From the NCBI GenBank assembly GCA_001636495.1, contig KV440964.1, positions 140,666-204,665 of the forward strand: 64,000 nt of DNA, read 5' to 3'. Source of the DNA: Sutcliffiella horikoshii. Lineage in GTDB: Bacteria > Bacillota > Bacilli > Bacillales > Bacillaceae_I. The position numbers and the translations under genes are program-made. Under the pieces are notes generated by a model that was not told the origin of the DNA, did no database searches, and saw only the letters and a program-made list of their open reading frames with translations. Below, piece after piece: positions 122 through 51,363 of the stretch. Numbering within the stretch: the stretch's first letter is position 1; every line of letters starts with the position of its first letter.

Positions 122-342
122 GTTCGGACAATTATTGTGCTTGTTCGGACAATCTTGCCACTGTTTCATATGGCGTTCGGACAATTACCTGAGTGGTTCG
201 GTCAAGTTTACCTGGGGTTTGGTCATTTGAAAAATTGGTTCGGACATTTTGGCGAAATCTTCAGACACTTCCACTCAAACTTCGGACAACTTTAGAAAAT
301 CTTCGGACAAGTTCGCCAAAACTTCGGACATTTGCAGTCTTC
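122..342. repeat. Phased 21-nt tandem array A (core KTTCGGACAA)
   Basis: Ten degenerate units begin with GTTCGGACA or CTTCGGACA at 122, 143, 175, 196, 217, 238, 259, 280, 301 and 322. The last eight are spaced exactly 21 nt; the 143 to 175 step is 32 nt, so one unit is broken. The array lies downstream of the cysP stop codon. Because 21 is a multiple of three, a plus-strand frame shows a 7-residue periodicity, but that frame runs antisense through cysP and is not a gene. I see nothing recognisable in 1-121 and no intrinsic terminator for cysP. Confidence 0.85.
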
Positions 343-391
343 GTCCCTCTCAAAGCACCGCCACCGAGCCATAAAGCGCCCCGCACACTGC

Positions 392-1465
392 TCAATCCTT
401 ACTCCCTGTCGACACTACCGCCGTCCCCGATCCTGAACCAGTTCGCTGCATCAAAAACTTCACTCCGAACACCGATACCAACACCCCAAGCATCGCAATT
501 ACCGGATACATATTCTGCTCAATCAATAGTTGGATCAGCGTGTAGGAAAGCACCATCGATAGCACCGGCGACACCACCCAGACAACGAGCAGTTGCACGA
601 CGATGTCTTTTTTTAATACGGAACGCCCTTGCTTCACAAAGCCGATTCCAATGATTGAAGACGTCGTGATCTGGGTCAGTGGCACCGGAATGCCGAACAC
701 CGAAGCCACCGTGACAATGCCGGCTCCCGTTCCGGAAATGACACAGCCTTCCTCCAAACGCAACTTGGTAATTTTCTTCCCGTTCGTTTCCATCACACGC
801 TGGCCGAGCAACAGCGCTCCGAGTGCTACGAACAATCCTCCCCAGAGAATCCCCTGTCCGGTGCTCATGATGCCCGCCCCGACAAGTGGCCCAACCGCAT
901 TGGCGACATTGTTCATGCCGGCTGAAAATGCCTCGAACACCCCCATCACCACCACCAGCACTGACAATATTGGAACGGCCCGGGATGATTTTACCCAGCG
1001 ATCTATCATTCTATGTTTCAGCACCCAGGTGGCACCGATTGCGAGCAGAAATGCGATAACCGGGGTCAGCAGCCAGAACGAAACGATCCAAGCAAGCTTT
1101 CCGACAAACACTGATTGATAAACAATCCCGGCACCAACGACTGCACCGACCGTCACTTCGCTGGTGGAGAGCGGGATGCCAAACACATTTGCTAAAAATA
1201 AAGACAGGGCCGCGGACGCAATCACGATTAGGGCAATCGCAACGGTAAACGTACTTTGCGGGACAATCCCACTTCCCATCGTCTTGACGACTTCTCCCCC
1301 GCCAAGCCATGCCCCAAAGAACACCGCAATGCCGCATAGCACCAAGGCCAGTTTCCTTTTGACCACTCCTGATCCATAGGCAATCCCCATGGATGCCGCC
1401 GCACCGCTTGCCCCGATGTTCATGGCGAAAAATAGACCAACGATGACGGCAATTGTAACTAACAT
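392..1465 (-). CDS. cysP: Sulfate permease CysP (PiT family)
   Basis: A 357-residue integral membrane protein of the inorganic phosphate transporter (PiT) family. The two inverted family signatures are visible near the N-terminus (MNIGASGAAASMG, about residue 15) and mid-protein (MNNVANAVGPLVGAG, about 190), embedded in roughly ten hydrophobic segments. The start at 1465 is chosen over an in-frame codon at 1489 because GGAGG lies just upstream of it. It follows cysH by about 30 bp on the same strand. In B. subtilis the PiT protein next to cysH (formerly YlnA) is a sulfate permease, and this context makes sulfate, not phosphate, the likely substrate. Phosphate transport cannot be excluded from sequence alone. 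No downstream sat or cysC is visible before the window ends. Confidence 0.8.
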   Translation of the reverse strand: MLVTIAVIVGLFFAMNIGASGAAASMGIAYGSGVVKRKLALVLCGIAVFFGAWLGGGEVVKTMGSGIVPQSTFTVAIALIVIASAALSLFLANVFGIPLSTSEVTVGAVVGAGIVYQSVFVGKLAWIVSFWLLTPVIAFLLAIGATWVLKHRMIDRWVKSSRAVPILSVLVVVMGVFEAFSAGMNNVANAVGPLVGAGIMSTGQGILWGGLFVALGALLLGQRVMETNGKKITKLRLEEGCVISGTGAGIVTVASVFGIPVPLTQITTSSIIGIGFVKQGRSVLKKDIVVQLLVVWVVSPVLSMVLSYTLIQLLIEQNMYPVIAMLGVLVSVFGVKFLMQRTGSGSGTAVVSTGSKD

Positions 1466-1495
1466 GCTTTTTCCTCCTTCACTTCCCAAACAACC

Positions 1496-2212
1496 TTAGT
1501 TTGTATGCAGCCCGCATTCTGTCTTGCCGCTCCCTGCCCAACGTCCAGCGCGGGAATCCCCTACCGTGCCGACTGCCTGCGTACAGGGAAAACAGCCAAT
1601 GCTCGGATAACCTTGATCATGAAGCTCATTGTAAGGAAGTCCCTGGGTCCGGATATGGTCCCAAACATCCTCCCATGTCCAATGAATGAGCGGACAGATT
1701 TTAATGTTTTGGAATTTGTCATCGCGGTTCAGAAAATTCGTGTTGGCCCGCGTTGGTGACTGCTCCCTCCTGAGCCCGGAAATCCAGGTCTTTTTTGGCG
1801 TGAGCGCTTCTCGTAAAGGTTCCACCTTCCGTATTTGGCAACAGAGCCCTGGATCTCTTTTCCAAAGGGCGGTGCCATGGGCCGCGGCTTGCTCATCCAA
1901 CGTTAGCACCGGCTTCCTTTTCTCAATCTGCAACTTCGGGTATCTGTTTTCAATTTGTTTGATGACCTGATAGGTTTCGGGAAAATGCAAATCTGTATCT
2001 AAAAATACAATTTGCGCATCTGGTTTTACCTCTTGAATCAGGTCAATTAGCACCACAGCCTCTGCCCCAAAACTTGATGCATAAATGATTTCGTCAGCTG
2101 AATAATTCCGGTACGCCCATTCAAGAACTGCATTGGCCCCTTTGGACTGATCATCCATTGAGAAGGTTGATGAGATCTCCCTCCAGTTTTCGTATGTTAT
2201 TTTCTGATCCAT
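1496..2212 (-). CDS. cysH: Phosphoadenylyl-/adenylyl-sulfate reductase
   Basis: A 238-residue thioredoxin-dependent reductase that makes sulfite from APS or PAPS in cytoplasmic sulfate assimilation. Visible features are the PP-loop SSFG (residues about 46-49), SGLRREQSPTR (145-155), the catalytic C-terminal ECGLH (Cys233), and two cysteine pairs, Cys124-Cys125 and Cys207-x2-Cys210. The paired cysteines are typical of the [4Fe-4S] cluster of APS-type reductases; the B. subtilis homologue is reported to accept both substrates. The start at 2212 has AAAGGAG nearby; an upstream in-frame ATG at 2293 lacks homology. It is the middle gene of the yezD-like/cysH/cysP operon and should be controlled by the SAM riboswitch at 2712-2822, so it is expected to be repressed when SAM is plentiful. 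Confidence 0.95.
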   Translation of the reverse strand: MDQKITYENWREISSTFSMDDQSKGANAVLEWAYRNYSADEIIYASSFGAEAVVLIDLIQEVKPDAQIVFLDTDLHFPETYQVIKQIENRYPKLQIEKRKPVLTLDEQAAAHGTALWKRDPGLCCQIRKVEPLREALTPKKTWISGLRREQSPTRANTNFLNRDDKFQNIKICPLIHWTWEDVWDHIRTQGLPYNELHDQGYPSIGCFPCTQAVGTVGDSRAGRWAGSGKTECGLHTN

Positions 2213-2328
2213 GCTGTTATTGCTCCTTTCTTTCCAAAGAAAAAAGGCAGCCCATTTACACGTGCAGGCCCGTTGTTCCAAGCCAAGCATCATGTAAAAA
2301 GACCGCCTCCAGTTTGTCTGGTCAGCGC

Positions 2329-2505
2329 TTATTTATTTTTCTGAAGGCGAACCTTCTCATTTTTTTCTATTTGAATGACTTTTCCATCCTGTACGACTAG
2401 GGTGATAGATCCAAATTTAATTGACTGCAGCATTCTTTCCAAGTGTGTTACAACCTCTTCCCATTCCGACTGTGCCAGTTGATTCGCCTCCATTTCGACT
2501 TGCAT
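2329..2505 (-). CDS. yezD: YezD-like small protein (DUF2292)
   Basis: A 58-residue ORF just upstream of cysH on the same strand. It contains the segment IKFGSITLVVQDGKVIQIE followed by KNEKVRL, which fits the DUF2292/YezD family (YGS..L.VHDG.VVQIE..EK.R). Family members are small, of unknown biochemical role, and often sit beside sulfur assimilation genes, as here. The start is uncertain. ATG at 2505 and ATG at 2493 are both in frame and neither has a good SD, because the hairpin repeat at 2529-2656 ends only 23 bp upstream. It is the first gene after the SAM riboswitch, so it shares sulfur control with cysH and cysP. Confidence 0.75.
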   Translation of the reverse strand: MQVEMEANQLAQSEWEEVVTHLERMLQSIKFGSITLVVQDGKVIQIEKNEKVRLQKNK

Positions 2506-2528
2506 TAAACTAAATTGATTACGTTACC

Positions 2529-2656
2529 CCTATAGATTGGAGTACAGGGTGTGAGACTCCGGCGGGAGGTAGCGGTAGCTTGAGACCCCGCAACGCAGTG
2601 AGGAGGCTCAAGCATCGCCCCGCGGAAAGCGAACACCCGGAACGGAAATCTATAGG
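2529..2656. repeat. GC-rich hairpin element, copy R1
   Basis: A 128-bp element bounded by a perfect 10-bp terminal inverted repeat (CCTATAGATT at 2529-2538, AATCTATAGG at 2647-2656). Inner arms GGGTGT/ACACCC and GCTTGAG/CTCAAGC can also pair, so the whole unit can fold into one long hairpin. Its core (TTGAGACCCCGCA, GAGGAGGCTCAA, CGCGGAAAGCG) recurs at 23108, 38748, 38934, 42033, 42181 and 60146. It lies in the sulfur operon leader, 13 bp past the T-run of the SAM riboswitch terminator and before the first gene. Confidence 0.9.
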
Positions 2657-2669
2657 AGTTCAACAGATT

Positions 2670-2703
2670 AAAAAAACGCCTCTCCCATTATGGAAAGGCG
2701 CCT
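2670..2703 (-). terminator. Intrinsic terminator of the SAM riboswitch
   Basis: On the minus strand the arms CGCCTTTCC and GGGAGAGGCG pair around a short loop and are followed by seven T residues (2670-2676). It is directly downstream of the S-box aptamer and is the expected expression platform for transcription attenuation. Confidence 0.9.
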
Positions 2704-2711
2704 GTATGTAA

Positions 2712-2822
2712 GTGCACCTTATCTTCCAAAATGGGTATCCATTTTGCTGGAATTGGCACCTTGCTGTTCGCAGGTTGCCGGGCTTCAACGGGCCAGTCCC
2801 TCAGCCGCTCTAGATAAGCGTC
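2712..2822 (-). promoter_or_regulatory. SAM riboswitch (S-box)
   Basis: Read on the minus strand, the leader has the S-box landmarks in order: P1 5' strand CTTATCTA with AGAGCGG, CTGAGGGACTGGCCC, the GAAGCCCGGCAACC block, AAGGTGCCAATTCC, and P1 3' strand AGATAAGG. P1 pairs 2811-2818 with 2717-2724. The terminator at 2670-2703 follows. S-box aptamers bind S-adenosylmethionine and cause premature termination when it is abundant; here they control the yezD-like/cysH/cysP operon. The 2823-3137 stretch upstream must hold the promoter, but I could not place it with confidence (GCAACA-N18-TATAAA is the best match). Confidence 0.95.
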
Positions 2823-2966
2823 AATTAAGTTGTGTTTTTATAAGCTGTTTTCGTAAACTTTGTTGCCTTTTCGTATTTTTAGGCAAGCCGACATATTCAT
2901 TGTTGTCGTGCTCTTTTCCTGGTTCTACAAAATGGCTTCTTGCCAATTGGTAAGTAAATAAACTAT

Positions 2967-2990
2967 AAAAAGTCCTATTGCCGACTTTTT
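2967..2990. terminator. Candidate bidirectional terminator hairpin
   Basis: AAAAAGTC at 2967-2974 pairs with GACTTTTT at 2983-2990 around an 8-nt loop. The T-rich arm could serve as a U-tract in either direction. It lies between the lipoprotein gene ending at 3138 and the SAM riboswitch leader, where a terminator is expected. Confidence 0.5.
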
Positions 2991-3137
2991 ATTGGCATAT
3001 AGCCACATACTTTTAGAAAAGAGCTTTGTTAAATGTTAAAATTAATCCTACCATACGTATATGAATTGTCAACAATGAAATTGACTGTTTTTTAAGATTT
3101 TTTTATTTTTGGGAAGTTGGTCCTAGCCAACTAACGA

Positions 3138-3599
3138 TTAGTCCCCAAACTTTTTGAGCCTGGTTTCGCCGTTCACTAATACTGCCTGATACATCTTTCC
3201 TGCCTTTGTTTCAAACACGACCCCTTGGATGGTTTCCTCCAGTTTTTCAAAAGTGATGATATCTCGTTTCGTCAGGCCATTAGAATCAAATGTCACTTTT
3301 CCTTCTAGCTTAAGTTGGCCATCACCGATCTCATCTGCCAACTCGATTTCATGGTCAAGTACACGCTCTTCGATCCAACCGGCAAGTAAAGGCTCCAACG
3401 TTTTTTCATTTATTTTTAAATTATCACTATATGTAAGAATCATCGAGTAGCGGACATATTGAACCGTCCCATACTCATTTTCCCCCATCCCAAGCGAGAG
3501 GGAAGAGATATCCATTATAGGGTCTGCTTCCTTTTGTGCTTCTGCACTGCACGCGCTCAACAGGAATACCAGACAGATTAAAGCCACCGTTTTCTTCAA
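3138..3599 (-). CDS. Putative lipoprotein of unknown function
   Basis: A 153-residue protein with a typical lipoprotein signal: MKKT, a hydrophobic core, and lipobox LSAC with the modified cysteine at residue 17. The mature part is acidic and mixed alpha/beta in appearance (for example YVRYSMILTYSDNLKINEKTL), with no motif I recognise. It probably faces outward, anchored in the cytoplasmic membrane. The start codon is TTG at 3599, supported by AAGGGGG a few bases upstream. It stands alone, with dgkB ending about 150 bp upstream behind its own terminator, so it is probably a single-gene unit. I cannot assign a function. Confidence 0.7.
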   Translation of the reverse strand: MKKTVALICLVFLLSACSAEAQKEADPIMDISSLSLGMGENEYGTVQYVRYSMILTYSDNLKINEKTLEPLLAGWIEERVLDHEIELADEIGDGQLKLEGKVTFDSNGLTKRDIITFEKLEETIQGVVFETKAGKMYQAVLVNGETRLKKFGD

Positions 3600-3696
3600 G
3601 CTGCTTCCCCCTTATTATAAAAAAATCCAGCAAACAAACAATACTGTCTCCTTAAACCTTAACATATTTTTCCTTGTCTCCGTTACTGAAAAATGA

Positions 3697-3738
3697 AAAA
3701 TGGTACCAGAATCCCATGTTTGGGGTCTGGCACCATTT
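3697..3738 (-). terminator. Terminator downstream of dgkB
   Basis: Arms AAAATGGTACCAGA (3697-3710) and TCTGGCACCATTTT (3725-3738) form a stable stem with one mismatch, and the flanks supply T-runs in both directions. It lies 11 bp past the dgkB stop codon. Confidence 0.8.
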
Positions 3739-3749
3739 TAAATATATTC

Positions 3750-4670: not shown

Positions 4671-4885
4671 TTCCCATCATCCTAAACGTATATTTAACTA
4701 AGCCCTCTTTTATATCTATGTGTTGTATTGCTCTATATGTTGTTTGATAAGATAGTTATATTAACCAATACCACTAAGTAGTGAACCTATAACCCACTAC
4801 TGATAACATATTAGCCTATTCGACGTGTAATATGCAATTAAAATGAAAATTTTGAGAAAAGGTGATTGTTTACTCCATCAACACG

Positions 4886-4942: not shown

Positions 4943-4950
4943 TTTATTTA

Positions 4951-6486
4951 TTACTCTTCTGTCTTCTTTTCTTCGCTCTTTTTGCCCGTTGCGATTTCGC
5001 TAGTCAGGCTGTCGATGCTGTGACGCACGTTTGCTTTGCCTGAGAAGTTTTCGATAAGCTCTTTTACATCAATTCCGGATGATGCTTTTAAGGACTCTTG
5101 AAGAGTGGACATCAGGTTGGTGGCGTAGCCGGTAACCTTGTTGGCGCCGCTGTTTTCGCCGCTTCCCCCTGTGTCTACTACTGTGATCTTATCGATGTTG
5201 CCAAGTGGAGCTGCAACTTGCTTCGCGTATTCAGGAAGCATTTTGAGGATCATGTCTAGGATAGCCGCTTGACCGAACTGCTCGAATGCTTCTGCAATCT
5301 TTTCTTTCGCTTCCGCTTCTGCAAGACCTTTCAGGCGGATAACTTCTGCTTCAGATTCCCCTTGCGCTCTTTGTGCATCGGCAATCGCAATACCGTCGAT
5401 ACGTACTTTTTCCGCTTCCGCTTTGGCCATTGCTTCAATGCGGTATTTGTTAGCATCCGCTTCTGCCATTTGCTTCATTTTATCGGCAGATGCTGCTTGC
5501 TCAACAGCGTAACGATCTGCATCGGCCTTTTTCTTGACCTCGGAGTCATATTGACGCTCACGACGCAGGATCTCTTTTTCTTCAAGCTCGATTTGCTTTT
5601 GACGCTCGATGATTTGGATCTGCATTTGTTGCTCAGTTACTTCCTGCTTCGCACGCGCTTCCTCTAAGTGGTACGCTTGGTCGGCACGGGCTTTCGCGAT
5701 GTCTTGCTCGCGGCGGTACTCGGCAACCTTCATTTGATTCTCTTTTTCCGCTTCCGCGATTTCAGTCGCACGCTCAATCTCGGCGCGTTGTGCGTCTTTT
5801 GCCGCTTCCGCACGCTTAATACGCGTTTCTTTATCTGCTTCCGCTGTTGCAATGTCTGCGTCACGCTTTACTTGTGCGATACGTGGCTTACCTAGGGACT
5901 CTAAGTATCCGTTGCTGTCACGGATGTCACGGATCGTGAAGGATACGATGATCAGTCCCATTTTCGCTAAATCCTGGGATGCAACACGTTGTACTTCTTG
6001 AGAGAATTTTTCACGATTTTTATAGATTTCTTCTACTGTCATGGAACCTAGGATGGAACGAAGGTGACCTTCAAGAACTTCACGTGCTTCGTTTTCCAGA
6101 TCCTCTTTGCTTTTTCCTAAAAATTGCTCAGCAGCTGTTGCGATATCGCCGATGGAGTTCCCGATCTTGATGATCGCTGTACCATCCGCCATAACAGGTA
6201 CACCCTGCTCTGTGTAAACTTCTGGAGTTCTAACATCTAGTTTGATAGATAGCAAGCTTAATGGTTCAGATTGTTGGAATACCGGCACGATGAACGCACC
6301 GCCACCTCGTACAATCTTGATTTTATTGCCTGATTCGTCTGTATGAACATTTTTCCCACCTAGATAACTACCTGTGATAATTAACGCTTCGTCTGGACCG
6401 ACTGTTTTGTAGCGCGCTACGAAAACAACGATCAGGACGAAAATTAGTGCAACGACGGCACCAATGATAATAAACATTTCACCCAT
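4951..6486 (-). CDS. floT: Flotillin-like protein FloT
   Basis: A 511-residue scaffold protein of functional membrane microdomains. A hydrophobic N-terminal segment (about residues 4-24) anchors it, an SPFH/prohibitin domain follows (to about 200), and then a long Ala/Glu-rich coiled coil with repeated EAE and KAEA motifs (about 210-400), and a flexible acidic tail. Length is close to B. subtilis FloT (YuaG). It is 12 bp downstream of the nfeD-type gene, matching the yuaF-floT pair. Both genes are expected to answer to the SigW-type promoter at 7125-7151 during envelope stress. The start at 6486 has GGGGGAAG upstream. Family role: raft assembly, fluidity control and signalling complexes. Confidence 0.95.
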   Translation of the reverse strand: MGEMFIIIGAVVALIFVLIVVFVARYKTVGPDEALIITGSYLGGKNVHTDESGNKIKIVRGGGAFIVPVFQQSEPLSLLSIKLDVRTPEVYTEQGVPVMADGTAIIKIGNSIGDIATAAEQFLGKSKEDLENEAREVLEGHLRSILGSMTVEEIYKNREKFSQEVQRVASQDLAKMGLIIVSFTIRDIRDSNGYLESLGKPRIAQVKRDADIATAEADKETRIKRAEAAKDAQRAEIERATEIAEAEKENQMKVAEYRREQDIAKARADQAYHLEEARAKQEVTEQQMQIQIIERQKQIELEEKEILRRERQYDSEVKKKADADRYAVEQAASADKMKQMAEADANKYRIEAMAKAEAEKVRIDGIAIADAQRAQGESEAEVIRLKGLAEAEAKEKIAEAFEQFGQAAILDMILKMLPEYAKQVAAPLGNIDKITVVDTGGSGENSGANKVTGYATNLMSTLQESLKASSGIDVKELIENFSGKANVRHSIDSLTSEIATGKKSEEKKTEE

Positions 6487-8219: not shown

Positions 8220-8253
8220 GTGTTTGGGGATACCTGGTGGTAGCGCGATGTGG

Positions 8254-8376
8254 ATTTATAAGCCAAGTTTTTGTTTTATGAGCCAACTTTTGAATTTATA
8301 GTCCAAGTTTTAAATTTATGAGCCAACTTTTCATTTTATAAGCCAAGTTAGGCAATATAAATGCCATTCGACACAC
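8254..8376. repeat. Phased 20-nt tandem array B with conserved tail
   Basis: Five units start at 8254, 8274, 8294, 8314 and 8334, exactly 20 nt apart, with framework WTTTATnnnCCAAsTTTT. The array ends in a tail (8350-8376) with CAATATAA and CATTCGACACA, which is nearly repeated after array E at 51337-51363. The tail holds TTCGACA, the reverse complement of a Spo0A box. It lies between the convergent VanY-type gene and gatB. No reading frame crosses it in phase, since 20 is not a multiple of three. Confidence 0.85.
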
Positions 8377-11760: not shown

Positions 11761-11800
11761 TCATCAGCCCAGGATTGGTGGAAATTTCTTTAGTTGGGTA

Positions 11801-11890
11801 AAGAGGGGTCTGACCCTCAGTGCGTTAGAGTGATGAAGAGGGGTCTGTCCCTCAATGCGTTAGAGAGGTAAAGAGGGGTCTGACCCCTCA
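11801..11890. repeat. 35-bp direct repeats carrying the GGGTCAGACCC palindrome
   Basis: AAGAGGGGTCTG starts at 11801, 11836 and 11871, an exact 35-bp period, each followed by a CCCTCA arm; the first two continue with TGCGTTAGAG. The same unit with very similar flanks occurs once at 45187-45215 in reverse orientation, and the core palindrome recurs at 28218 and 47226. The last copy contains the stop codon of the aminotransferase gene (11888-11890). There is no U-run, so it is not a standard intrinsic terminator. Confidence 0.85.
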
Positions 11891-12802
11891 GTTGTAAACA
11901 GGTGTAAGGAACCCCATGTATTTCACATTCTCCCCCCTCACAATCTCCAGGTAGGAGCGTTGGAGTTGCGAGGTGATGGGGCCAATTTCTCCGGTGCCTA
12001 TGGTTCTTTTGTCTACATTGATGACAGGCAGGACTTCTACAGCTGTTCCGGTCAGGAAGATTTCTTCGGCAAAGTACAGCTCTGACCTCGGGATGCTCAT
12101 TTCCTTGACTTGCAAAGAGTAATCCTTTTCCGCAATTGTCATGATTGTATTCCTTGTGATGCCCTCTAAGATATTATCGGCCAAGGGTGGCGTGTACAAC
12201 TCCCCGTTTTTCAACATGAACAGATTGTTTGTGCTCGCTTCACTTATATTTCCTTCTCTTGTCACAAAAATCGCTTCATCCGATCCTTCGGCGATTGCTT
12301 GTGAATATGCTAAAGCTGAATTAAGATAACCGCCAATACTTTTGACTGTCGGTGGGATTGTGCTGTTTTCGATTCGTAGCCAAGACGATATCATCGCATT
12401 CACAGCGGGCTTTACGACATATGTCGCTTCTTCGATGAAAATGGTCAATCCATATTCCGTTTCAAAAAGGTCCGGTCGTAAAGAAGGAAGATTAATAAAG
12501 GCAATGGGGCGAATATAGATGTCCCTTTTCACCTTGTTTATTTTCATCAGCTCGACTGTAATTTCACAAAGTTCCTTCACCGTGTATGGGATAGCGATAA
12601 ACAGTACCTTACATGAATTAAGAAGTCGTCTGTAATGATCCTCCAAACGGAACAAAAAGAGTTCCTGCTTCTTCACGTTCCAATAACCACGGATGCCTTC
12701 AATTGCACCCAATCCGTAATTGAACGTTTTATTTTTCACACTGATTTTGGCTTCCGCTTCTAGTATGAAACGACCATTAAAATAGATATTTTCCAACATC
12801 AT
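11888..12802 (-). CDS. ilvE: Branched-chain amino acid aminotransferase (class IV)
   Basis: A PLP enzyme of fold type IV, about 304 residues, that interconverts leucine, isoleucine and valine with their keto acids. Evidence: YGLGAIEGIRGYW near the N-terminus, the Schiff-base lysine in VKSIGGYLNSALA (Lys154), the ISEASTNNLF phosphate-binding loop and EIFLTGTAVEVLPV. D-amino acid transaminase or aminodeoxychorismate lyase would be alternatives but fit less well. The start is unclear: ATG at 12802 or 12799, or TTG at 12796, directly follows a GGGGGG run, while ATG at 12838 lacks an SD. A SigA-type promoter and a CodY-like box lie upstream, fitting branched-chain control. The stop codon lies inside the GGGTCAGACCC repeat. 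Confidence 0.85.
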   Translation of the reverse strand: MMLENIYFNGRFILEAEAKISVKNKTFNYGLGAIEGIRGYWNVKKQELFLFRLEDHYRRLLNSCKVLFIAIPYTVKELCEITVELMKINKVKRDIYIRPIAFINLPSLRPDLFETEYGLTIFIEEATYVVKPAVNAMISSWLRIENSTIPPTVKSIGGYLNSALAYSQAIAEGSDEAIFVTREGNISEASTNNLFMLKNGELYTPPLADNILEGITRNTIMTIAEKDYSLQVKEMSIPRSELYFAEEIFLTGTAVEVLPVINVDKRTIGTGEIGPITSQLQRSYLEIVRGENVKYMGFLTPVYN

Positions 12803-17251: not shown

Positions 17252-17343
17252 ATATTGTTTATATTCTAATAGGAAGAAAAATATGGAGGCATTGGAATGG
17301 TGCGTCAGATGTCGGGCGGGGTAAGTCTTTGACTGATTTTTTT

Positions 17344-17440
17344 AAAAGTTACAATGACGGTGGAAAAAGTTACAATGACGGCCGAAAAAGTTATAATAAC
17401 CTCTGAAAAAGTCACAATAACAACAAAAATAGTTACAATC
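17344..17440. repeat. Phased 21-nt tandem array C (core GTTACAATGACGG)
   Basis: Five units, GTTACAAT or variants, begin at 17348, 17369, 17390, 17411 and 17432, exactly 21 nt apart, each preceded by a run of A. It is the reverse complement of the array at 33314-33418, which also has five units. It lies between rocA and camS, both transcribed leftward. Confidence 0.85.
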
Positions 17441-17467
17441 TCCCCTCCGTTCCCCCCTCGCAACAAA

Positions 17468-28284: not shown

Positions 28285-29940
<1,656 letters not shown>

Positions 29941-30003
29941 CACTAGGAGAAGGACTAAAATACCGCATAGCCCCCATCGCTCCACATGCCTCTTCTTTAT
30001 ACA

Positions 30004-33163: not shown

Positions 33164-33313
33164 ATGTGTTGTGTCTCCCTTCCAATGGAAAAGCGACGAA
33201 TCTTTGGAATCCCGCCGCTTTTTTTAGGCTCTTTTTCAAAAAAGGTAATTGTGTTTGGTTTTTCAATGTTTTTAGGGGGACTGTATCATGGTGTCCCCCT
33301 CACTTTACAGAGG

Positions 33314-33418
33314 ATTGTAACTATTTTTGGTGTCATTGCAACTTTTCCAGCGCTGATTGTGACTTTTTCCGGCGTCATTGCAACTTTTCCACCCGTCATT
33401 GTAACTTTTGCCGAAAAT
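33314..33418. repeat. Phased 21-nt tandem array C' (core ATTGTAACTTTTCC)
   Basis: Five units (ATTGTAAC, ATTGCAAC, ATTGTGAC and so on) start at 33314, 33335, 33356, 33377 and 33398, exactly 21 nt apart. It is the reverse complement of array C at 17344-17440, down to the CGTC end of each unit. It lies between purF and purM inside the purine operon. Confidence 0.85.
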
Positions 33419-33442
33419 CAGCAGCTTAACAAGTCCCCCAAC

Positions 33443-42392: not shown

Positions 42393-42449
42393 CATCGCAT
42401 AGGAAAACAAACTTAATCGCCATGAAAAACATAGAGGATGTTAACTTCC

Positions 42450-42519
42450 CCTCATAGTCCGACCAATTTACGGCGGTCGGGTAGAGACTTATGGGCCATA
42501 TTCCCAAAATTATATGAGG
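42450..42519 (-). promoter_or_regulatory. Guanine riboswitch of the pur operon
   Basis: Read on the minus strand: P1 CCTCATATAAT, L2 side TTGGGAATATGGCCCA, J2/3 AAGTCTCTACC, P3 CGACC with loop GCCGTAAA, and GGTCGGACTATGAGG closing P1. The C in GGACTATG is the Watson-Crick partner that specifies guanine or hypoxanthine, not adenine. Ligand binding should favour the terminator at 42336-42392 and shut off purine synthesis. Confidence 0.96.
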
Positions 42520-42558
42520 TTCATTATTTTGTTTTATAGTTCGTGTTCATCTACGTTT

Positions 42559-45185: not shown

Positions 45186-45195
45186 TTTAACGGAG

Positions 45196-45249
45196 TGAGG
45201 GTCAGACCCCTCTTTATCTCTTTATCTCTTTATCTCTTTACCTCTTCAT
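45196..45249. repeat. GGGTCAGACCC palindrome joined to an 8-bp satellite
   Basis: TGAGGGTCAGACCCCTCTT (45196-45214) runs into five 8-bp units at 45210, 45218, 45226, 45234 and 45242 (three CTCTTTAT, then CTCTTTAC and CTCTTCAT). The right end covers the last four codons and stop of the MFS gene. On the minus strand the palindrome and flanks (TAAAGAGGGGTCTGACCCTCA and then CCGTTA) match the 35-bp repeats at 11801. Confidence 0.85.
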
Positions 45250-46485
45250 CACTCTACCATACAAAATAACAGCGGGTATTAACAGAATAGCGCTAAGTAC
45301 GAGCGCAGTTCTGATGTAGTATCTGGTGGCGATGACGCCTACAAATGGGCCTCCTAGTCCTTGCCCGACTGCGTTGCCTTGGCCCATGATGGAAAGGACG
45401 GTGGCACGTGACTTACTTTCAAGCTGTTGATTCAGCCATGCCTGGTACATCGGCGCAGTGATGGAGCCAACGATGCCGAGCATCCAGAAACAGAGGATGG
45501 CCAAATAGAAATATGGTGTTACCGCAAAGAAAATCATGAAAACAATTTGTGCCATTGTGAAATAAAACAGGCTATACCTGATCACCTTGGGCTGATTCAC
45601 ATCAAATTTTCTTTGATACCATTCCATCGCACCGATACTGATTAGCGTACCGACGAAATGAATGATACCAAACCAGACGACCGCATCCAGCTGCCCGATG
45701 CTCGGAAAAGTGAACGCCTCCAGCAAATGTGCCTCCCAAAGACGGTCGATGCCTTCTGAAGTGGCTCCCATAAAGACCGTTACCACTAACAGCATCATGA
45801 GGATTGGCTTTTTTTTGATAAAGGCAACTCCTGAAAGAAAGGTCGATGACATCGCTTTCCAAGGCTTTTCGGTAGCAGCTTCCACCTTCTCGAAATTCTT
45901 CTCTTTCATGAATACCAATAGGAATATCCCGAGCAAGATGTAAAGAACCCCACCCGCAATATAAGGAAGATTCAATGCAATACTTGCAAGAGCAACACTG
46001 ATGATGATCCCGGCAAGGCTTGCAATGAGCCTAAGCTGATTGGCGCGGACAAATATCTTCGCAACCGCCCCTTCCCCTACTTCATCTGTCAGCCACGCCT
46101 GATCTGCACCGCTGAGGAACGTTTCCCCGATTCCGCGGATAAACTCACCGATGAGTAATAGGACAAATGCAGACAACACTCCTGCAACTACTGTACTTCC
46201 GCTCAAGTAAGGAATACTCCCCTCAAAAATAAAGGCAGCCCCCAAGATGAATGTCGCAATGATGATCGACAATCTCCTGCTATAGGTGTCAGCCACCACT
46301 CCCGCTACACTTTCAAATATAATGACGGTCAATTCAATGGCCGTTCCAATCAAAATTAACTGAAGGGGATTGAGCCCCAACTCTTCAATATAATAGATCG
46401 CATACGTCGTAAACATGATCGAGCTCGCAAGCGAAATGATAATATGCATGATGTAATACACATGCTGGGTTTCAAGTTTATACAT
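45238..46485 (-). CDS. MFS transporter
   Basis: A 415-residue major facilitator protein with 12 hydrophobic segments. The motif-A-like loop between helices 2 and 3 reads VAGVVADTYSRRLSII (about 60-75), and EFIRGIGETFLSGADQAWLTDE (about 113) is typical of a drug/metabolite-exporter-like subgroup. Substrate unknown; antibiotic or metabolite efflux is a guess. GTAGG lies six bases before the ATG. A 20-codon ORF with its own good SD and promoter precedes it by 48 bp, hinting at leader-peptide control. The stop codon lies within the 8-bp satellite. Confidence 0.88.
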   Translation of the reverse strand: MYKLETQHVYYIMHIIISLASSIMFTTYAIYYIEELGLNPLQLILIGTAIELTVIIFESVAGVVADTYSRRLSIIIATFILGAAFIFEGSIPYLSGSTVVAGVLSAFVLLLIGEFIRGIGETFLSGADQAWLTDEVGEGAVAKIFVRANQLRLIASLAGIIISVALASIALNLPYIAGGVLYILLGIFLLVFMKEKNFEKVEAATEKPWKAMSSTFLSGVAFIKKKPILMMLLVVTVFMGATSEGIDRLWEAHLLEAFTFPSIGQLDAVVWFGIIHFVGTLISIGAMEWYQRKFDVNQPKVIRYSLFYFTMAQIVFMIFFAVTPYFYLAILCFWMLGIVGSITAPMYQAWLNQQLESKSRATVLSIMGQGNAVGQGLGGPFVGVIATRYYIRTALVLSAILLIPAVILYGRVMKR

Positions 46486-46533
46486 TGTTACCTACTTTCC
46501 AGCAAGCAACAAAACGGTTTTAAACGCCAGTCG

Positions 46534-46596: not shown

Positions 46597-46617
46597 GATT
46601 AAACACCTCCGCTTTAA

Positions 46618-46626
46618 AATATACCA
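46618..46626 (-). promoter_or_regulatory. Extended -10 promoter of the leader-MFS unit
   Basis: On the minus strand ATGGTATATT supplies TG-N-TATATT (-10 at 46618-46623). No convincing -35. Predicted start near 46611, giving a very short 5' end before the leader ORF. Confidence 0.5.
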
Positions 46627-46775
46627 TGATTTCCCTTTCATTTGTTTAAGTGATTTTCGACATAGAGTCGGAATGCGAATCTACTTGGCCAGGTCATTCC
46701 TAGGCACTTACCCACCCACTCGTGCATATTCTAATGGCAAAGAGAATGCAAACAGGAAAGGAAGCGTGACTGCCG

Positions 46776-47270: not shown

Positions 47271-47300
47271 TATATAAGTTAGAGTAATCTCGTGTATCAA

Positions 47301-47326
47301 GCCCCTAATTCATAGGGGTTTTTTCT
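47301..47326 (+). terminator. Terminator downstream of the Hsp20 gene
   Basis: CCCCTA and TAGGGG pair around ATTCA and are followed by TTTTTTC. Confidence 0.85.
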
Positions 47327-47336
47327 TTTGTTTATA

Positions 47337-47386
47337 GGAAGATTATGAACAAGGATTTCTTGGAAGATTATGAACAAGGATTTCTC
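47337..47386 (+). repeat. 25-bp tandem duplication upstream of the sigY promoter
   Basis: Two adjacent 25-base copies (GGAAGATTATGAACAAGGAT followed by TTCTT or TTCTC) at 47337-47361 and 47362-47386 differ at one base. Each contains ATGAACA, close to the TGAACG -35 of the sigY promoter 23 bp downstream. Confidence 0.9.
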
Positions 47387-47408
47387 AAAAAAAGTTTTAT
47401 AAATAAAA

Positions 47409-47434
47409 TGAACGCTTTATAAACTCACAGCGTC
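47409..47434 (+). promoter_or_regulatory. ECF-type autoregulatory promoter of sigY
   Basis: TGAACG (47409-47414) and CGTC (47431-47434) are 16 bases apart, matching the promoter form reported for SigY of B. subtilis, which transcribes its own operon. It ends 53 bp before the sigY start. Confidence 0.82.
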
Positions 47435-47487
47435 TTATGGTTGAACACAAGGAAATGCTTAGAAACACAAAGAAAGGAGGCATCGAT

Positions 47488-48027
47488 TTGGAGCAGGAAG
47501 AAGACATTTATCTGATACAAGAGGCAATAACAGGCGACGACGATGCCTTCACGCAGCTATTTCAGAAGCACTATTCTTTTCTGTATAAATACTTACTCAA
47601 ACTAACACTCAATGAAGAAACGAGCAGCGACCTGGCACAGGAAACGATGATGAAATGCTACACCAACCTCGCCTCCTTTAAAGGAGAGGGGAAATTCTCC
47701 ACCTGGATGATCTCGATTGCCTCTAGGCTCTACATCGACTCCATCCGAAAAAAAGAGCGCGAAAAGAAAAAAGCCAACCGTCTCTTTCATGTTCTGTCCA
47801 GACAGCTTACCTTCCGCTCTACATCAAACGGCATGGAGTGGAGCGATACGTTCTCAGACTTCAACCAGCTGTCAGCAGAAACAAGAACACCTATCTTACT
47901 AAGGCACTATTACGGCTACACCTATGAAGAAATCGGCTCGATGCTTGGCATCAGAACAGGAACGGTTAAATCCAGAGTCCACAATGGAATCAAAACGCTA
48001 AGAAAGGAGTGGGACCACGATGAGTAA
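47488..48027 (+). CDS. sigY: ECF RNA polymerase sigma factor SigY
   Basis: A 179-residue ECF sigma factor. Region 2 (AFTQLFQKHYSFLYKYLLKLT through FSTWMISIASRLYIDSIRKK, about 22-92) binds core enzyme and the -10 box; region 4 (ILLRHYYGYTYEEIGSMLGIRTGTVKSRVHNG, about 137-168) is the helix-turn-helix for the -35 box. The start is TTG at 47488 with AAAGGAGG seven bases upstream; in-frame ATG codons from 47437 fall too close to the promoter. Six genes follow in the order of the B. subtilis sigY operon. The operon is positively autoregulated and restrained by membrane proteins encoded downstream, with YxlC as the main anti-sigma factor. Confidence 0.93.
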   Translation: MEQEEDIYLIQEAITGDDDAFTQLFQKHYSFLYKYLLKLTLNEETSSDLAQETMMKCYTNLASFKGEGKFSTWMISIASRLYIDSIRKKEREKKKANRLFHVLSRQLTFRSTSNGMEWSDTFSDFNQLSAETRTPILLRHYYGYTYEEIGSMLGIRTGTVKSRVHNGIKTLRKEWDHDE

Positions 48028-48355
48028 ACAAGACAATAAAGACAAAGGCCTTTTAACTAAACTTCAAAAAGACTGGAAGCAACTAGATGAGCTAGGGTCA
48101 CCTCCTATCCCAACAGCTCACCAGATGCAAGAACAACTTCATATGGCCAAATCAGCAAAGCGCAAAGCGTTCCAAAAAGAGCTCGGAATGTTTGTCATCA
48201 CCGCGCTCATCCTTTTAGCAGCGTTTACCACCGTCATGTTCCAGGCACCAATTGTGTTTTTCGTCATTCAAGTGTCCGCACTCGTCCTAGCTCCGATCAT
48301 CTTTTACTTCTTGCAAAAAAGCAAAGCTAAACAGGAAGGAAGCATCCTATCATGA
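48020..48355 (+). CDS. yxlC: Anti-sigma factor YxlC
   Basis: A 111-residue protein with a soluble N-terminal part (KLQKDWKQLDELGSPPIPTAHQM) and two hydrophobic helices (about 56-73 and 77-97). It fits the YxlC family. In B. subtilis YxlC, with YxlD, inhibits SigY at the membrane. It overlaps sigY by eight bases and yxlD by four. Confidence 0.9.
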   Translation: MSKQDNKDKGLLTKLQKDWKQLDELGSPPIPTAHQMQEQLHMAKSAKRKAFQKELGMFVITALILLAAFTTVMFQAPIVFFVIQVSALVLAPIIFYFLQKSKAKQEGSILS

Positions 48356-48573
48356 CACCGGAAAAACTGGAGCAACTATATACCATTCTTCCATGGCTCA
48401 TTCCTGTCCTGTTGACACAAAGCATCCTGTTGTTCATTGACGCCAAGAAAAAAGGCAGTTACGCCTGGTTCTGGGGAATCTGGGGTTTGATACAATTCCC
48501 ACTACCCACCCTGTTCTATCTGATATTCGTGTACTACCCACATCATAAAAGGCAAAAAAGGAGAGGACATTAA
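48352..48573 (+). CDS. yxlD: SigY regulatory membrane protein YxlD
   Basis: A 73-residue two-helix membrane protein of the phospholipase-D-nuclease N-terminal type (WLIPVLLTQSILLFIDAKKKGSYAWFWGIWGLIQFPLPTLFYLIF, cited by its two helices near 12-30 and 38-60). Its partner role in SigY inhibition is known from B. subtilis. It overlaps both neighbours by a few bases, indicating coupled translation. Confidence 0.88.
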   Translation: MTPEKLEQLYTILPWLIPVLLTQSILLFIDAKKKGSYAWFWGIWGLIQFPLPTLFYLIFVYYPHHKRQKRRGH

Positions 48574-48764
48574 TGGAAAACATCAACTGGTCACTTGCAA
48601 CACCACTAATCGTCTTACAATTAATATTAGTGGTCACGGCCCTCATCAGCCTCGCCCGTCAGGAAAATACGAACGGACCGAAATGGATCTGGGCTCTCAT
48701 CATTCTTTTCATCACCACCATCGGCCCGATCCTCTATTTCATCATCGGCCGAAAAAATGATTAA
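48573..48764 (+). CDS. yxlE: Small membrane protein YxlE
   Basis: A 63-residue protein with the PLD-nuclease N-terminal pattern: helix LIVLQLILVVTALISLA, loop RQENTNGPKWIWAL, helix LFITTIGPILYFIIGRK. The role is unproven; it is the fourth gene of the sigY operon. The ATG shares a base with the yxlD stop. Confidence 0.87.
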   Translation: MENINWSLATPLIVLQLILVVTALISLARQENTNGPKWIWALIILFITTIGPILYFIIGRKND

Positions 48765-48777
48765 GGAGCCGACAGAC

Positions 48778-49674
48778 ATGCTACTCGAAATTAGCCAACT
48801 AACCAAAACCTATAAACAGCACCAAGCCGTAAAAGACATATCTTTTACGATAGAAAAAGGATCCTGCGTCGCGCTTCTCGGTCCAAATGGAGCTGGGAAA
48901 ACGACCTCCTTGCAGATGCTTGCCGGACTTCTTACACCGACATCCGGCACCATCCGATTTGCAAGTAGCGACGGAAAGGACTACCGCCACCGTATTGGCT
49001 TCCTGCCCCAGCACCCAGCCTTTTTTTCCTGGATGACACCGAAGGAATATTTACAGTTCGCAGGCAAGCTTTCACATCTCCCGAAAGCACAGCTAAAAGC
49101 CAAGATAGAGGAGACACTGGAATTCGTCAGCCTTACTGATGTGAAAAACAAACGGATTGGCGGCTTCTCCGGCGGAATGAAACAGCGCCTCGGCCTGGCA
49201 CAAGCACTTTTGCATGATCCTGAGCTTTTGATACTTGATGAGCCAGTCTCTGCACTCGATCCAGACGGCAGACGCGATGTCTTGAAAATTCTTACCCAGC
49301 TAAAAAACCGAATGACGATACTATTCTCCACCCATGTCCTTCACGATGCAGAACAAGTTTGCGATACCGTGATTATGCTAAAAAATGGTCAAATCAAATG
49401 GGACGGCAGTCTGGACTCACTTAGGTCCGAGCATACAACCTCTTCAGTAAAAATAAAAACGGAAGAGTCACTCACCGGCCTATTAGATGGCATCCCAAAC
49501 ATCGAATCCATCGACTATATAGACGATCAGACAGCCACCATTTTTGTCAATGAAGCTACCTTCCAAAGTAACACATTAGTTACTAGATTATTAGAAAAGC
49601 AACTCACTCTATCACACTATGAAAAAGTGGAAGATTCACTTGAAGACGCATATATGAAGGTGATGAACAGATGA
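48778..49674 (+). CDS. yxlF: ABC transporter ATP-binding protein YxlF
   Basis: A 298-residue ABC ATPase: Walker A GPNGAGKT (35-42), Q-loop in GFLPQHPAF, signature FSGGMKQRLGLA (about 129), Walker B ELLILDEPVSALDP (about 150) and H-loop FSTHVLHDAEQVC (about 182). The C-terminal ~90 residues form the extra domain common in multidrug or export ATPases. AAGGAG precedes ATG 48778; the in-frame ATG at 48757 overlaps yxlE. It pairs with YxlG. Confidence 0.93.
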   Translation: MLLEISQLTKTYKQHQAVKDISFTIEKGSCVALLGPNGAGKTTSLQMLAGLLTPTSGTIRFASSDGKDYRHRIGFLPQHPAFFSWMTPKEYLQFAGKLSHLPKAQLKAKIEETLEFVSLTDVKNKRIGGFSGGMKQRLGLAQALLHDPELLILDEPVSALDPDGRRDVLKILTQLKNRMTILFSTHVLHDAEQVCDTVIMLKNGQIKWDGSLDSLRSEHTTSSVKIKTEESLTGLLDGIPNIESIDYIDDQTATIFVNEATFQSNTLVTRLLEKQLTLSHYEKVEDSLEDAYMKVMNR

Positions 49675-50447
49675 AGAACTTTATAACGCTTTTCACAAAA
49701 GAAATGCAAGAAAGCATGCGAAATGGAAAATGGATCTGGCTGCCCATCGTCATCATAATCATCGGAATTACCCAGCCGGTCACCAGCTACTATATGCCAC
49801 AGATCATCGAATCGGCCGGAAACCTACCGGAAGGAACAGTCATAGAGATACCTATCCCCTCCGGAGAAGAGGTCCTTGCCGGAACACTGGGCCAGTACGG
49901 TACGCTCGCCACGCTACTTTTTGTGCTAGCTTCGATGAGTGCCATCTCAAACGAACGCCAAAACGGCACGCTCACACTCGTCATGGCCCGTCCAGTCATG
50001 GCAGTCCAGTACATCTTAAGTAAATGGGCTGCACAGCTTGTCATTGCACTAGTTTCCCTCATACTAAGCTTCGTTCTGACCTGGTACTATACAAATCTAC
50101 TATTCAACACAGTGGACTGGAGTATCATGCTGGCAAGCCTCGGTGTCTACAGCTTATGGATTATATTGATTATCTCAGTTACCATCTTTACCGGGACATT
50201 GCTCCGAACATCTGGCGGAATCGCCGGGGTCAGCATATCTTTTCTAGCACTCCTGACCGTATCAACAGGACTCTTCACCAAATTCATGGAATGGAGCCCA
50301 GCAAAGCTTCGTGAACACGCCACCTCCATCCTTATGCAAGGGGAGCTTCTAGAGAACGGACTGCTCGTCATATCTGCAACACTCTGCCTTTCTCTATTGC
50401 TTGTACTATTGGCTACCTTCAACTTTAAAAGATTTGAACAATTTTAA
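49671..50447 (+). CDS. yxlG: ABC transporter permease YxlG
   Basis: A 258-residue ABC-2-type permease with six hydrophobic segments, beginning FITLFTKEMQESMRNGKWIWLP, with FVLASMSAISNERQNGTLTLVMARPV (about 82-107) marking the family. With YxlF it should form an exporter under SigY control; the substrate is unknown. A four-base overlap (ATGA) links it to yxlF. A terminator follows. Confidence 0.9.
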   Translation: MKNFITLFTKEMQESMRNGKWIWLPIVIIIIGITQPVTSYYMPQIIESAGNLPEGTVIEIPIPSGEEVLAGTLGQYGTLATLLFVLASMSAISNERQNGTLTLVMARPVMAVQYILSKWAAQLVIALVSLILSFVLTWYYTNLLFNTVDWSIMLASLGVYSLWIILIISVTIFTGTLLRTSGGIAGVSISFLALLTVSTGLFTKFMEWSPAKLREHATSILMQGELLENGLLVISATLCLSLLLVLLATFNFKRFEQF

Positions 50448-50456
50448 CCTCTAAAA

Positions 50457-50503
50457 AAAAGAGTAGCAATCGGTCCTTCATTTAAGAAGCCGTGCTACTC
50501 TTT
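50457..50503. terminator. Bidirectional terminator between yxlG and the kinase gene
   Basis: AAAGAGTAGCA and TGCTACTCTTT pair. The right arm overlaps the last codons of the convergent minus-strand kinase gene, so one hairpin serves both. Confidence 0.8.
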
Positions 50504-51018
50504 GATCTTTCTATCTCTTGTAAAAAATATTCAATGGCAGCTTTCCCCTTTAATCTCACCACCAGCTTGTCTTTTTGATAAAAATCCAGCCGCGCCTTCA
50601 TCGCTTTCTTCCTTGGACGATAGGTGGAAATGATAAACTTGATGAATGCCCACTCCATCCTCTCCGTACACTCTCCTCCAAGATCAGGACGCCTTTTCCC
50701 AAGGTTAGTTAGCCACCTCTTTATCACACGATACAAACAAACGCGTAACGGAAGGTCTAAGTAGATGATTGTATCCGCCTTTTCTGCCCGGATGTCAAAA
50801 GTGGCGGTGTAGTTTCCTTCTACGATCCAAGAGGTGCGGTTCTTAATCATTTCTTGCTGTGCTTGTGTGAATTCCTCTATGCTTGCCTCCACCCAGCCTG
50901 GTTTCCAAAAGAATGCATCTAAGTGAAATACATCCATCTCTAATGCTTTTCCAAGTCTGGCGGCAAACGTGGATTTACCAGCTCCTGCTGACACTCCAAT
51001 CACCATAATACGTTGCAT
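50482..51018 (-). CDS. P-loop kinase, DNA topology modulation (FlaR-like) type
   Basis: A 178-residue AAA/adenylate-kinase-like protein. Walker A is GVSAGAGKST (8-17); the family segment DVFHLDAFFWKPGWVEAS (about 30) and WIVEGNYTATFDIR (about 64) match the group annotated as topology modulation proteins (FlaR). The LID-like arginines occur in GKRRPD and STYRPRKK. The true substrate is unknown; the name comes from an indirect supercoiling phenotype. The ATG at 51018 has a GGGAGG-type SD. It is a single gene convergent with yxlG. Confidence 0.82.
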   Translation of the reverse strand: MQRIMVIGVSAGAGKSTFAARLGKALEMDVFHLDAFFWKPGWVEASIEEFTQAQQEMIKNRTSWIVEGNYTATFDIRAEKADTIIYLDLPLRVCLYRVIKRWLTNLGKRRPDLGGECTERMEWAFIKFIISTYRPRKKAMKARLDFYQKDKLVVRLKGKAAIEYFLQEIERSKSSTAS

Positions 51019-51220
51019 GTTTGATTTCCCTCCCCTTTTATGTACGCTCTATGTTCAGGATATTTAGTATAGAGGAAATGAGTTGGAAAATCTAGGGGAG
51101 AGTGACTTTTTAGATCTCATGAAGGCTTGGTGTACCAAAAAGTGAATTTAATAGAGTTATTAACCCCACTTTTAATCTCAAAATGGAGCTATCATTTTCA
51201 GTAGTTAGTCCACCTTTCTG

Positions 51221-51363
51221 TTTTAACCGCGGACTTTTCATTTTATCCGCGATGTCTTCGATTTATCCACGAACTTTTCGTTTTATCCGCGAATTTTCTG
51301 TTTTATCCGCGAACTTTTCGTTTTATCCGCGAAGTCGGACAATATAACCGTCATTCGACACAA
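51221..51363. repeat. Phased 20-nt tandem array E with conserved tail
   Basis: Six units start at 51221, 51241, 51261, 51281, 51301 and 51321, exactly 20 nt apart, consensus GTTTTATCCGCGAACTTTTC. The framework is that of array B with a different five-base core. The tail at 51337-51363 (GACAATATAACCGTCATTCG then ACACA) matches the array B tail. It lies between the kinase gene and the rRNA operon terminator; 51019-51220 holds nothing else I can name. Confidence 0.88.

Follow-up and report, generated by a model that had tools for sequence, protein, structure and literature searches.

Six intergenic arrays, in each of which a short core word recurs every 20 or 21 nt, lie in a 64-kb stretch of the Sutcliffiella horikoshii genome (hereafter the window: 64,000 nucleotides, positions 140,666 to 204,665 of contig KV440964.1 in assembly GCA_001636495.1), and arrays of this kind are a genome-wide feature, not one peculiar to the window. 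Comparison with congeneric genomes indicates that the core words and their spacing are kept while the intervening linkers drift. With a probability that we put at roughly one half, the arrays are rows of binding sites, stacked on one face of the helix, for trans-acting factors whose words differ between lineages, and would most likely serve as polar barriers or boundaries.

A preliminary description of the window, made from its letters, reported six phased arrays (Table 1), each with its own core word. The phasing is real: the best lags of arrays 1-6 are 21, 20, 21, 21, 21 and 20, with scores of 40, 44, 49, 39, 41 and 50 (maximum 60), and none of 1000 order-1 shuffles per array reaches the real score at any lag from 15 to 30. 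Scores at adjacent lags are close to the shuffled mean, except that lags 19 and 21 form a shoulder in array 2, and spacing is exact apart from the 32-nt break in array 1 and the 62-nt step in array 4. The attribution of a separate word to each array is inexact, because arrays 3 and 5 hold one word in opposite orientation (AAAAGTTACAAT and ATTGTAACTTTT) and arrays 2 and 6 have the skeleton TTTAT-NNN-C in common.

The genome (4.26 Mb) was sampled in 40 stretches of 20 kb, amounting with the window to 864 kb or about 20% of the total, and non-coding spacers of at least 100 bp were scanned for a best-lag score of at least 37 of 60. Among 390 spacers of this genome the best lag is 20 in nine, 21 in 12, 40 in five, 42 in two and 52 in 19, with one or two spacers each at 25, 35, 41, 43, 60, 62 and 73; among 342 spacers of congeners, some of them counted twice because the purF and gatB stretches overlap, it is 20 in seven, 21 in 27, 40 in four, 42 in 22 and 52 in 19, with one or two each at nine other lags. 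No shuffled spacer reaches the cut-off in either set. In this autocorrelation scan, which the preliminary description had proposed, the spectra have their maxima at 20 and 21, at multiples of these and at 52, and periods are not widely spread; nor are the arrays the identical recent duplications of arbitrary length that it had named as the contrary case. A gene-context scan of the sample yields 28 non-coding 20/21 arrays, from which six further lag-21 matches were excluded as coding, and 21 arrays of period 52; extrapolation to the whole genome gives about 140 and about 100, respectively. Five of the six window arrays belong to the set of 28 (array 1 scored as 'edge'), and array 4 falls outside it, probably because a short, low-scoring open reading frame call (29809-29985) made it 'coding'. 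Exactly 20 nt separate neighbouring units in 67 of 73 spacings of period-20 arrays, and exactly 21 nt in 51 of 62 spacings of period-21 arrays, four of the remaining 11 being two, three or six times 21; K-type arrays (see below) are the most irregular. Because these arrays were selected by lag, a search by word alone is the fairer test of spacing.

About ten word families recur in this genome, together with singletons: in one-strand notation, A (GG-NNN-ATAAA and CGCGGATAAA), B (AAAAGTYACAAT), C (TGTCCGAA), D (GACGGGATT), E (AATGGATAT) and F (GGTAGAAG); and G (TTCGTGCC), H (TTGATATAT), J (TCGCCCG) and K (CCCCCC-type). The core word occupies 8-12 nt of a whole unit of 20-21 nt. When no spacing is assumed, neighbouring copies of A, E, H and J are found 20 or 40 apart (E also 21, 41 and 61), and those of B, C, D, F and G 21, 42 or 63 apart; strays are single for most words, three for F and, in congeners, four at 40-41 for B, and ten congener pairs of A lie 44 apart. 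The period is unchanged in congeners for A, B, C, D and G; E, F, H and J have no congener pairs, and F, H and J rest on two to four pairs in the sample of this genome. Where testable, period is a property of the word. Super-units of 40/42 bp also occur, and one congener (G013) has runs of identical units.

Divergence among three orthologous arrays is concentrated outside the core. At the purF-purM array of six aligned species, 29/900 core positions (0.032) differ, against 118/540 in linkers (0.219) and 447/2516 in flanks (0.178); the orthologues of array 3 in seven species give 136/1092 (0.125), 200/567 (0.353) and 970/4201 (0.231), and the gatB array in four species gives 3/210 (0.014), 55/267 (0.206) and 270/1321 (0.204). 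The core thus diverges 3-15 times less than the linker, and the linker at the flank rate or above it, in species picked for the same word and for alignability (6, 7 and 4 of 16; G011, with one unit fewer, was excluded from the purF set and G012 dropped from the array-3 set) and with core columns defined as those in which half or more of the rows match the motif. That linkers change at the flank rate or faster with spacing intact holds whatever the choice of core columns. Gap entries within arrays measure 42 (four), 21 (two), 19 (one) and 2 (one), six of the eight being whole units, and flank gaps have many different lengths. The earlier proposal that spacing is what matters is borne out in so far as spacing persists while linkers drift at least as fast as flanks, but the word is conserved too; side-by-side binding on one face, also proposed there, gains support from the kept core and spacing, the drifting linkers and the single period per word.

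Words are in part characteristic of species. The pattern TTTATNNNCC-N10-TTTATNNNCC is present in 13 of 16 Sutcliffiella genomes and its reversed control in none; for the B pattern the control gives two matches in this genome and six in G007, versus 28 and 29. Tallied by locus, and with G015 dropped for having one locus, the sixth base is A at 7/7 loci in G002, 2/2 in G001 and 8/9 in G000, T at all loci in G007 (7), G011 (8), G008 (7) and G003 (6), and C at 7/7 in G009. Agreement within species is 0.79 over 75 loci, the maximum in 20,000 label shuffles being 0.46. B words are species-coherent only in part. In G009 the free triplet is CAG in all 13 pattern matches at seven loci, and with base 6 left free the same loci hold 34 units, every one with C; linker identity between these loci is 0.18-0.44, rising to 0.62 at the base adjoining the core. 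A constant core among unrelated linkers implies an influence common to all loci that favours, or writes, one and the same core, and in G009 the word has persisted at unlinked loci over a time sufficient for linkers to become unrelated. Around these sites, this genome and G009 match at 70-79%, mostly in coding DNA.

The same spacer is occupied differently in different species. Between purF and purM, word B stands in 11 of 16 genomes (this genome, G013, G001, G007, G011, G008, G003, G006, G012, G015 and G002, partly as GTGAGT-shifted forms in G006, G012, G015 and G002); G009 has ATTGCRACACTT, G014, G005 and G004 have three unrelated words, and G010 has no array. Between purH and purD, this genome and G002 have word D, G005 has word C, nine genomes have a GC-rich element, and four have 19-96 nt with neither array nor GC-rich element. 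At gatB, several species have word A with varying middle letters, G004 has a 52-bp array and six species have nothing array-like. A second A array, at 1.07 Mb, has its orthologue in G007 (82% over 4.1 kb) and reads GGCTTATAAA in this genome and GGACAATAAA/GGCTAATAAA in G007; in these two unlinked arrays, at gatB and at 1.07 Mb, the two genomes differ at the same base. Re-wording at the same locus is seen for these two orthologous A arrays only. Four of the seven G009 array sites can be placed in this genome, where their counterparts are a 52-bp array (L254), a word-E array (L257), a GC-rich element (L259) and a 6.7-kb difference (L260). The GC-rich element, of about 170 nt (CGCTTTCCGCGGGGCGG..GGGGTCTC), fills spacers that hold arrays in other species; it stands in the purH-purD spacer of the nine congeners (L201-L208, L210) and is also found at L297:13931-14190 in this genome and at L212. 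In the purF-purM spacer of the window (33164-33442) and of congeners, a hairpin, viewed by eye, has differently worded arrays on either side according to species.

Arrays have a preferred position and direction. Both neighbours were called for 47 arrays of the 20/21 and 52-bp classes, of which 3 are in divergent, 12 in convergent and 32 in codirectional spacers; the 356 background spacers of 120 bp or more divide into 86, 47 and 223. In 12 of 15 codirectional 20/21 arrays and 9 of 11 period-52 arrays (six rows adjoining ribosomal RNA (rRNA) operons were omitted), a terminator hairpin separates the upstream stop codon from the array, against 62 of 128 array-free spacers with such a hairpin in the first 140 nt, the part searched; on convergent sides the counts are 8/12 and 8/12. 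A one-sided leader, TGTCGAAT, accompanies six of the seven A arrays in the sample of this genome and one H array: among 39 non-coding occurrences of TGTCGAA, a lag-20 array follows directly in seven and precedes directly in none, and the G009 leaders viewed keep TGTCG. GC skew places the origin at 0.53-0.56 Mb and the terminus at 2.73-2.86 Mb, with one stretch of opposite sign at 0.81 Mb; relative to these, the lagging strand carries TTTAT..C words at 9 of 12 A loci and ATTGTRAC words at 9 of 10 B loci, and for either word one more locus is too close to the origin or terminus for a strand call. This strand bias may really reflect gene direction, because genes too follow the leading strand. In a hand tally of codirectional arrays of this genome, 14 have the canonical direction and three the opposite, with the ambiguous K class omitted and word alignment chosen by the analyst; word B occurs in both orientations relative to genes (arrays 3 and 5).

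A protein stacked head to tail along one DNA face would be expected to leave just this trace: a spacing fixed at two turns, linkers free to drift and a constrained, asymmetric core. A fixed period for each word points to a separate geometry, hence perhaps a separate protein, for each. In the reading that we favour, sequence-specific trans-acting factors, presumably proteins and possibly one for each word, would bind next to each other on a single helix face, with one factor for every two turns, at a step of 20 or 21 bp set by the word. Constraint would then fall only on the 8-12 bp word and the spacing; the words in use would differ by lineage, and arrays would be gained, lost or re-worded. 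Because most arrays come after the upstream gene's intrinsic terminator and prefer one orientation, their most likely job would be that of a polar barrier or boundary behind terminators, halting read-through between transcription units. A bolder version, tentative and on balance doubtful, is that a vocabulary of about a dozen 8-12 bp words, in two-turn arrays behind terminators, is read by an undescribed, fast-evolving family of DNA-binding factors stacked on one helix face, each word by its own member, such that a shift in specificity would re-word arrays genome-wide, like PRDM9 motifs in mammals, and that the 52-bp arrays are a second form of the same boundary system.

Several observations weigh against binding-site rows with a barrier function. 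The choice of core columns by motif and of species by alignability favours low core divergence, and the in-array gap entries stem from few independent events. Coherence of words is not universal, as the sixth base is mixed in G010, G006, G012 and G013 and G009 itself has exceptions (another A-like word at gatB and two B sub-words); the label shuffle of the sixth base ignores shared descent. Species-wide words would also result if arrays had been copied long ago and constrained ever since, which is compatible with the comparison of this genome with G009 because the matches are largely coding and neutral DNA may be close to saturation. Some orthologous sites lack an array with no visible consequence, one array lies within the pur gene cluster, where harm would be expected from a strict barrier, the leader TGTCGAA is confined to A arrays and one H array, and the terminator search covered different lengths in arrays and background. 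Candidate reader families offer no help: LytTR genes number one to five per Sutcliffiella genome, without expansion, RHH_1, a short ribbon-helix-helix domain (the kind expected of a ParR-type binder) that is easily missed, has no match at E<=0.001 in any of the 16 genomes, and no factor has been identified.

The main rival is that the arrays are selfish or neutral minisatellites, tandem duplications that survive in safe post-terminator spacers and are homogenised by slippage without host function. It accounts for location and turnover, that is, for whole-unit gains and losses, 40/42-bp super-units, the identical-unit runs of G013, presence and absence between species, the GC-rich element or 52-bp array found in the same spacer elsewhere, and the ordinary neighbouring genes, but not for a constrained core with free linkers: slippage alone would move linkers together with cores, whereas cores change 3-15 times less than linkers in orthologues, the period is fixed per word, the same word has unrelated linkers at unlinked loci, and there are an orientation bias and a leader. 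We regard it as rather unlikely. Species-wide words with unrelated linkers, defined ends, polarity and the different occupation of the same post-terminator spacers between species would also follow if the arrays were selfish and had a trans-acting writer, a mobile-element enzyme that recognises the word and seeds or extends arrays by two helical turns. To our knowledge no enzyme writes such arrays, Y1_Tnp, the only single-domain transposase family for which a search was made, has other palindromes at its flanks, and the constancy of old cores is not obviously expected of a writer, which makes this reading improbable.

Two further explanations need no row of DNA-bound factors. Repeated unstructured motifs in read-through transcripts might act as 3' elements of the RNA, bound by an RNA-binding protein, in keeping with the orientation bias relative to the upstream gene (by the hand tally) and with the folding of 20/21 arrays, which is like that of shuffles (mean z -0.2, none of 28 below -3, hence no hairpin excess); most arrays, however, lie past an intrinsic terminator, word B occurs in both gene-relative orientations, and a helical period of 20/21 would be pointless in RNA, so that we give this little credence. 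The preliminary description had also suggested phased bending, and intrinsically curved DNA, bent in phase without a specific protein, agrees with a curvature, predicted from wedge parameters, that exceeds shuffles at z>2 in 6 of 28 arrays, five of them of period 21, versus 8 of 231 ordinary spacers. As a general property it fails, since 22 of the 28 arrays are not above z 2, period-20 arrays exceed it in only 1 of 15, and conserved words are needless for bending; curvature as the whole explanation is highly improbable.

Scans of possible sources and readers gave the following. Twenty flanking or nearby proteins were scanned, of which 18 have a family match and none is ParM or ParR; ten of the array neighbours scanned are ordinary (transport, chemotaxis, GltX, a 2-hydroxyacid dehydrogenase, AroA, YchF, a CBS/DRTGG protein, GcvP, an HTH_26 protein and one without match). 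The gene for the 73-aa HTH_26 protein (L025:6102-6323) adjoins two word-F arrays (L025:3533-3658 and 5872-5997), and this protein is a weak lead for a reader of the word. Another gene in this stretch (L025:4813-5367) matches, among the 16 genomes, this one only. A plasmid or phage source for word A was rejected: array 6, the sole array searched, has no plasmid or phage match. Y1_Tnp has a match in all 16 genomes, in one or two copies (a fragment in G005), and its gene, viewed by eye here and at 12 congener loci, is flanked by the palindromes GGGGTCAGACCCC or GGGACAGGTCCC or by neither, and by no array word. An origin from repetitive extragenic palindromes (REPs) and REP-associated tyrosine transposases (RAYTs) was likewise rejected, as the transposase is flanked by non-array palindromes and the arrays have no hairpin excess. 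The Y1 transposase gene has the same neighbour in this genome and at 8 of the 12 congener loci viewed; a 35-bp tandem repeat with GGGGTCTGACCC resembles the palindrome near this RAYT-like gene (window 11799-11892; C1:823775, L030:13592-14338).

Known systems resemble the arrays in single respects. Plasmid iterons are direct repeats spaced about 20 bp apart and bound on one face by an initiator, with one origin per plasmid adjoining rep; here 28 chromosomal arrays occur in a 20% sample, and array 6, the only one searched, lacks a plasmid match. Bacterial interspersed mosaic elements (BIMEs) and REPs with RAYTs are intergenic, lie at 3' ends, number hundreds per genome and are species-specific in sequence; the arrays share location, number and species-specific sequence, and a Y1_Tnp gene is present, but REPs are hairpins, whereas the arrays have no palindromic unit and the transposase flanks carry other palindromes. 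Sites of LytTR response regulators are direct repeats of about 9 bp, about 21 bp apart, two per promoter, in contrast to at least four units in post-terminator spacers, rarely divergent ones, with no expansion of LytTR. Clustered regularly interspaced short palindromic repeats (CRISPR) differ in having near-identical repeats of 20 or more nt with spacers of similar length, whereas here the whole unit is 20-21 nt with a core of 8-12 nt. Minisatellites or variable-number tandem repeats likewise change by whole units (six of eight gap entries are 21 or 42), but unit positions are not equally free here, core and linker differing about 3-15 fold in motif-chosen columns. In ParR/parC centromeres, a small protein cooperatively binds direct repeats, spaced 20 bp in pSK41, with a specificity that varies by family (PMC9426499); the likeness lies in direct repeats at this spacing, the difference in that parC is one plasmid site upstream of parM, whereas the arrays number about 140 on the chromosome by extrapolation and the 20 array-neighbour proteins scanned include no ParM or ParR. 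The Beggiatoaceae TAACTGA repeats are genome-wide intergenic direct repeats of one word, for which a mobile binding protein was suggested as one option; they are heptamer repeats, mostly directly before start codons, and fixed spacing with variable linkers and changing words is not seen in the accessible part of that paper (PMC4679880). In agreement with the preliminary description, which knew of no such element family, no described family matching the arrays was found in the literature, as covered by open-licence papers.

Table 1. Arrays and associated features of the window (window coordinates)
Feature	Position	Strand	Details
Array 1, word C (TTCGGACA)	123..343	.	Period 21, 10 units, one 32-nt break; adjoins 3' end of sulfate permease gene
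Array 2, word A (minus strand GG-NNN-ATAAA)	8253..8352	-	Period 20, 5 units; convergent spacer between carboxypeptidase-like gene and gatB
Leader of array 2 (TGTGTCGAATGGCATTTAT, minus strand)	8357..8375	-	
Array 3, word B (AAAAGTTACAAT)	17343..17447	+	Period 21, 5 units, the last a variant (AAATAGTTACAATC); flanked by two minus-strand genes
Array 4, word D (minus strand TTATGACGGGATTA)	29730..29938	-	Period 21, 8 units, one 62-nt step; purH/purD spacer
Array 5, word B on minus strand	33314..33418	-	Period 21, 5 units; purF/purM spacer within pur gene cluster
Array 6, word A (CGCGGATAAAACGAAAAGTT, minus strand)	51220..51339	-	Period 20, 6 units; 3' of 5S rRNA gene
Leader of array 6 (TGTGTCGAATGACGGTTA, minus strand)	51345..51362	-	
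Probable rRNA operon terminator hairpin	51412..51449	-	Between 5S rRNA gene and array 6 leader; read by eye

The window arrays neighbour the genes for sulfate permease, gatB, 1-pyrroline-5-carboxylate (P5C) dehydrogenase, purH/purD, purF/purM and 5S rRNA. Rfam gives seven matches in the window, none at an array; on the minus strand are an S-adenosylmethionine (SAM) riboswitch (2716-2820) and purine riboswitches (42435-42537, 58239-58340 and 60402-60503). The window also contains a perfect 25-bp tandem duplication (47337-47385) and a run of five units of CTCTTTAT type (45210-45250).

Beyond Sutcliffiella, a search with the GGATAAA word alone found arrays of that word, among the matches listed, in Cytobacillus gottheilii, Bacillus massilionigeriensis, B. 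canaveralius, Indiicoccus explosivorum, Amphibacillus marinus, Oceanobacillus bengalensis, Planococcus salinarum and Lysinibacillus telephonicus. The first stretches of 20 more distant genomes (299 kb, some contigs being very short; two genomes of the same family and 18 of the same order) contain no lag-20 or lag-21 array; they give one lag-41 match, which lies in an open frame, and two of the genomes have 52- or 53-bp arrays. O. bengalensis has a period-20 array of about 40 or more units of TTCTCGGGATTTATCCTCTC type (L053:6123-7036). The second array class has a period of 52 (53 in one distant relative) and units that are often palindromic (ATGAAGACCTCT..AGAGGTCTTCAT and other words); the 21 such arrays in the 864-kb sample fold with a mean z of -2.1, four of them below -3. 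They are mostly behind terminators, sometimes beside 20/21 arrays or in their place; examples are L017:8534-8759, L020:3881-4234 and L014:9355-9885 in this genome, L201-L243 in congeners, and also L285 and L294.

Because the words of the arrays differ between species and loci, similarity searches and repeat finders easily overlook them. If rows of binding sites are what they are, the arrays would constitute a genome-wide layer of chromosome punctuation in bacteria, and the combination of constant spacing, constrained core, free linkers and lineage-specific words would offer a testable bacterial case of co-evolution between sites and their trans-acting reader, in which array DNA could serve as bait for the reader.

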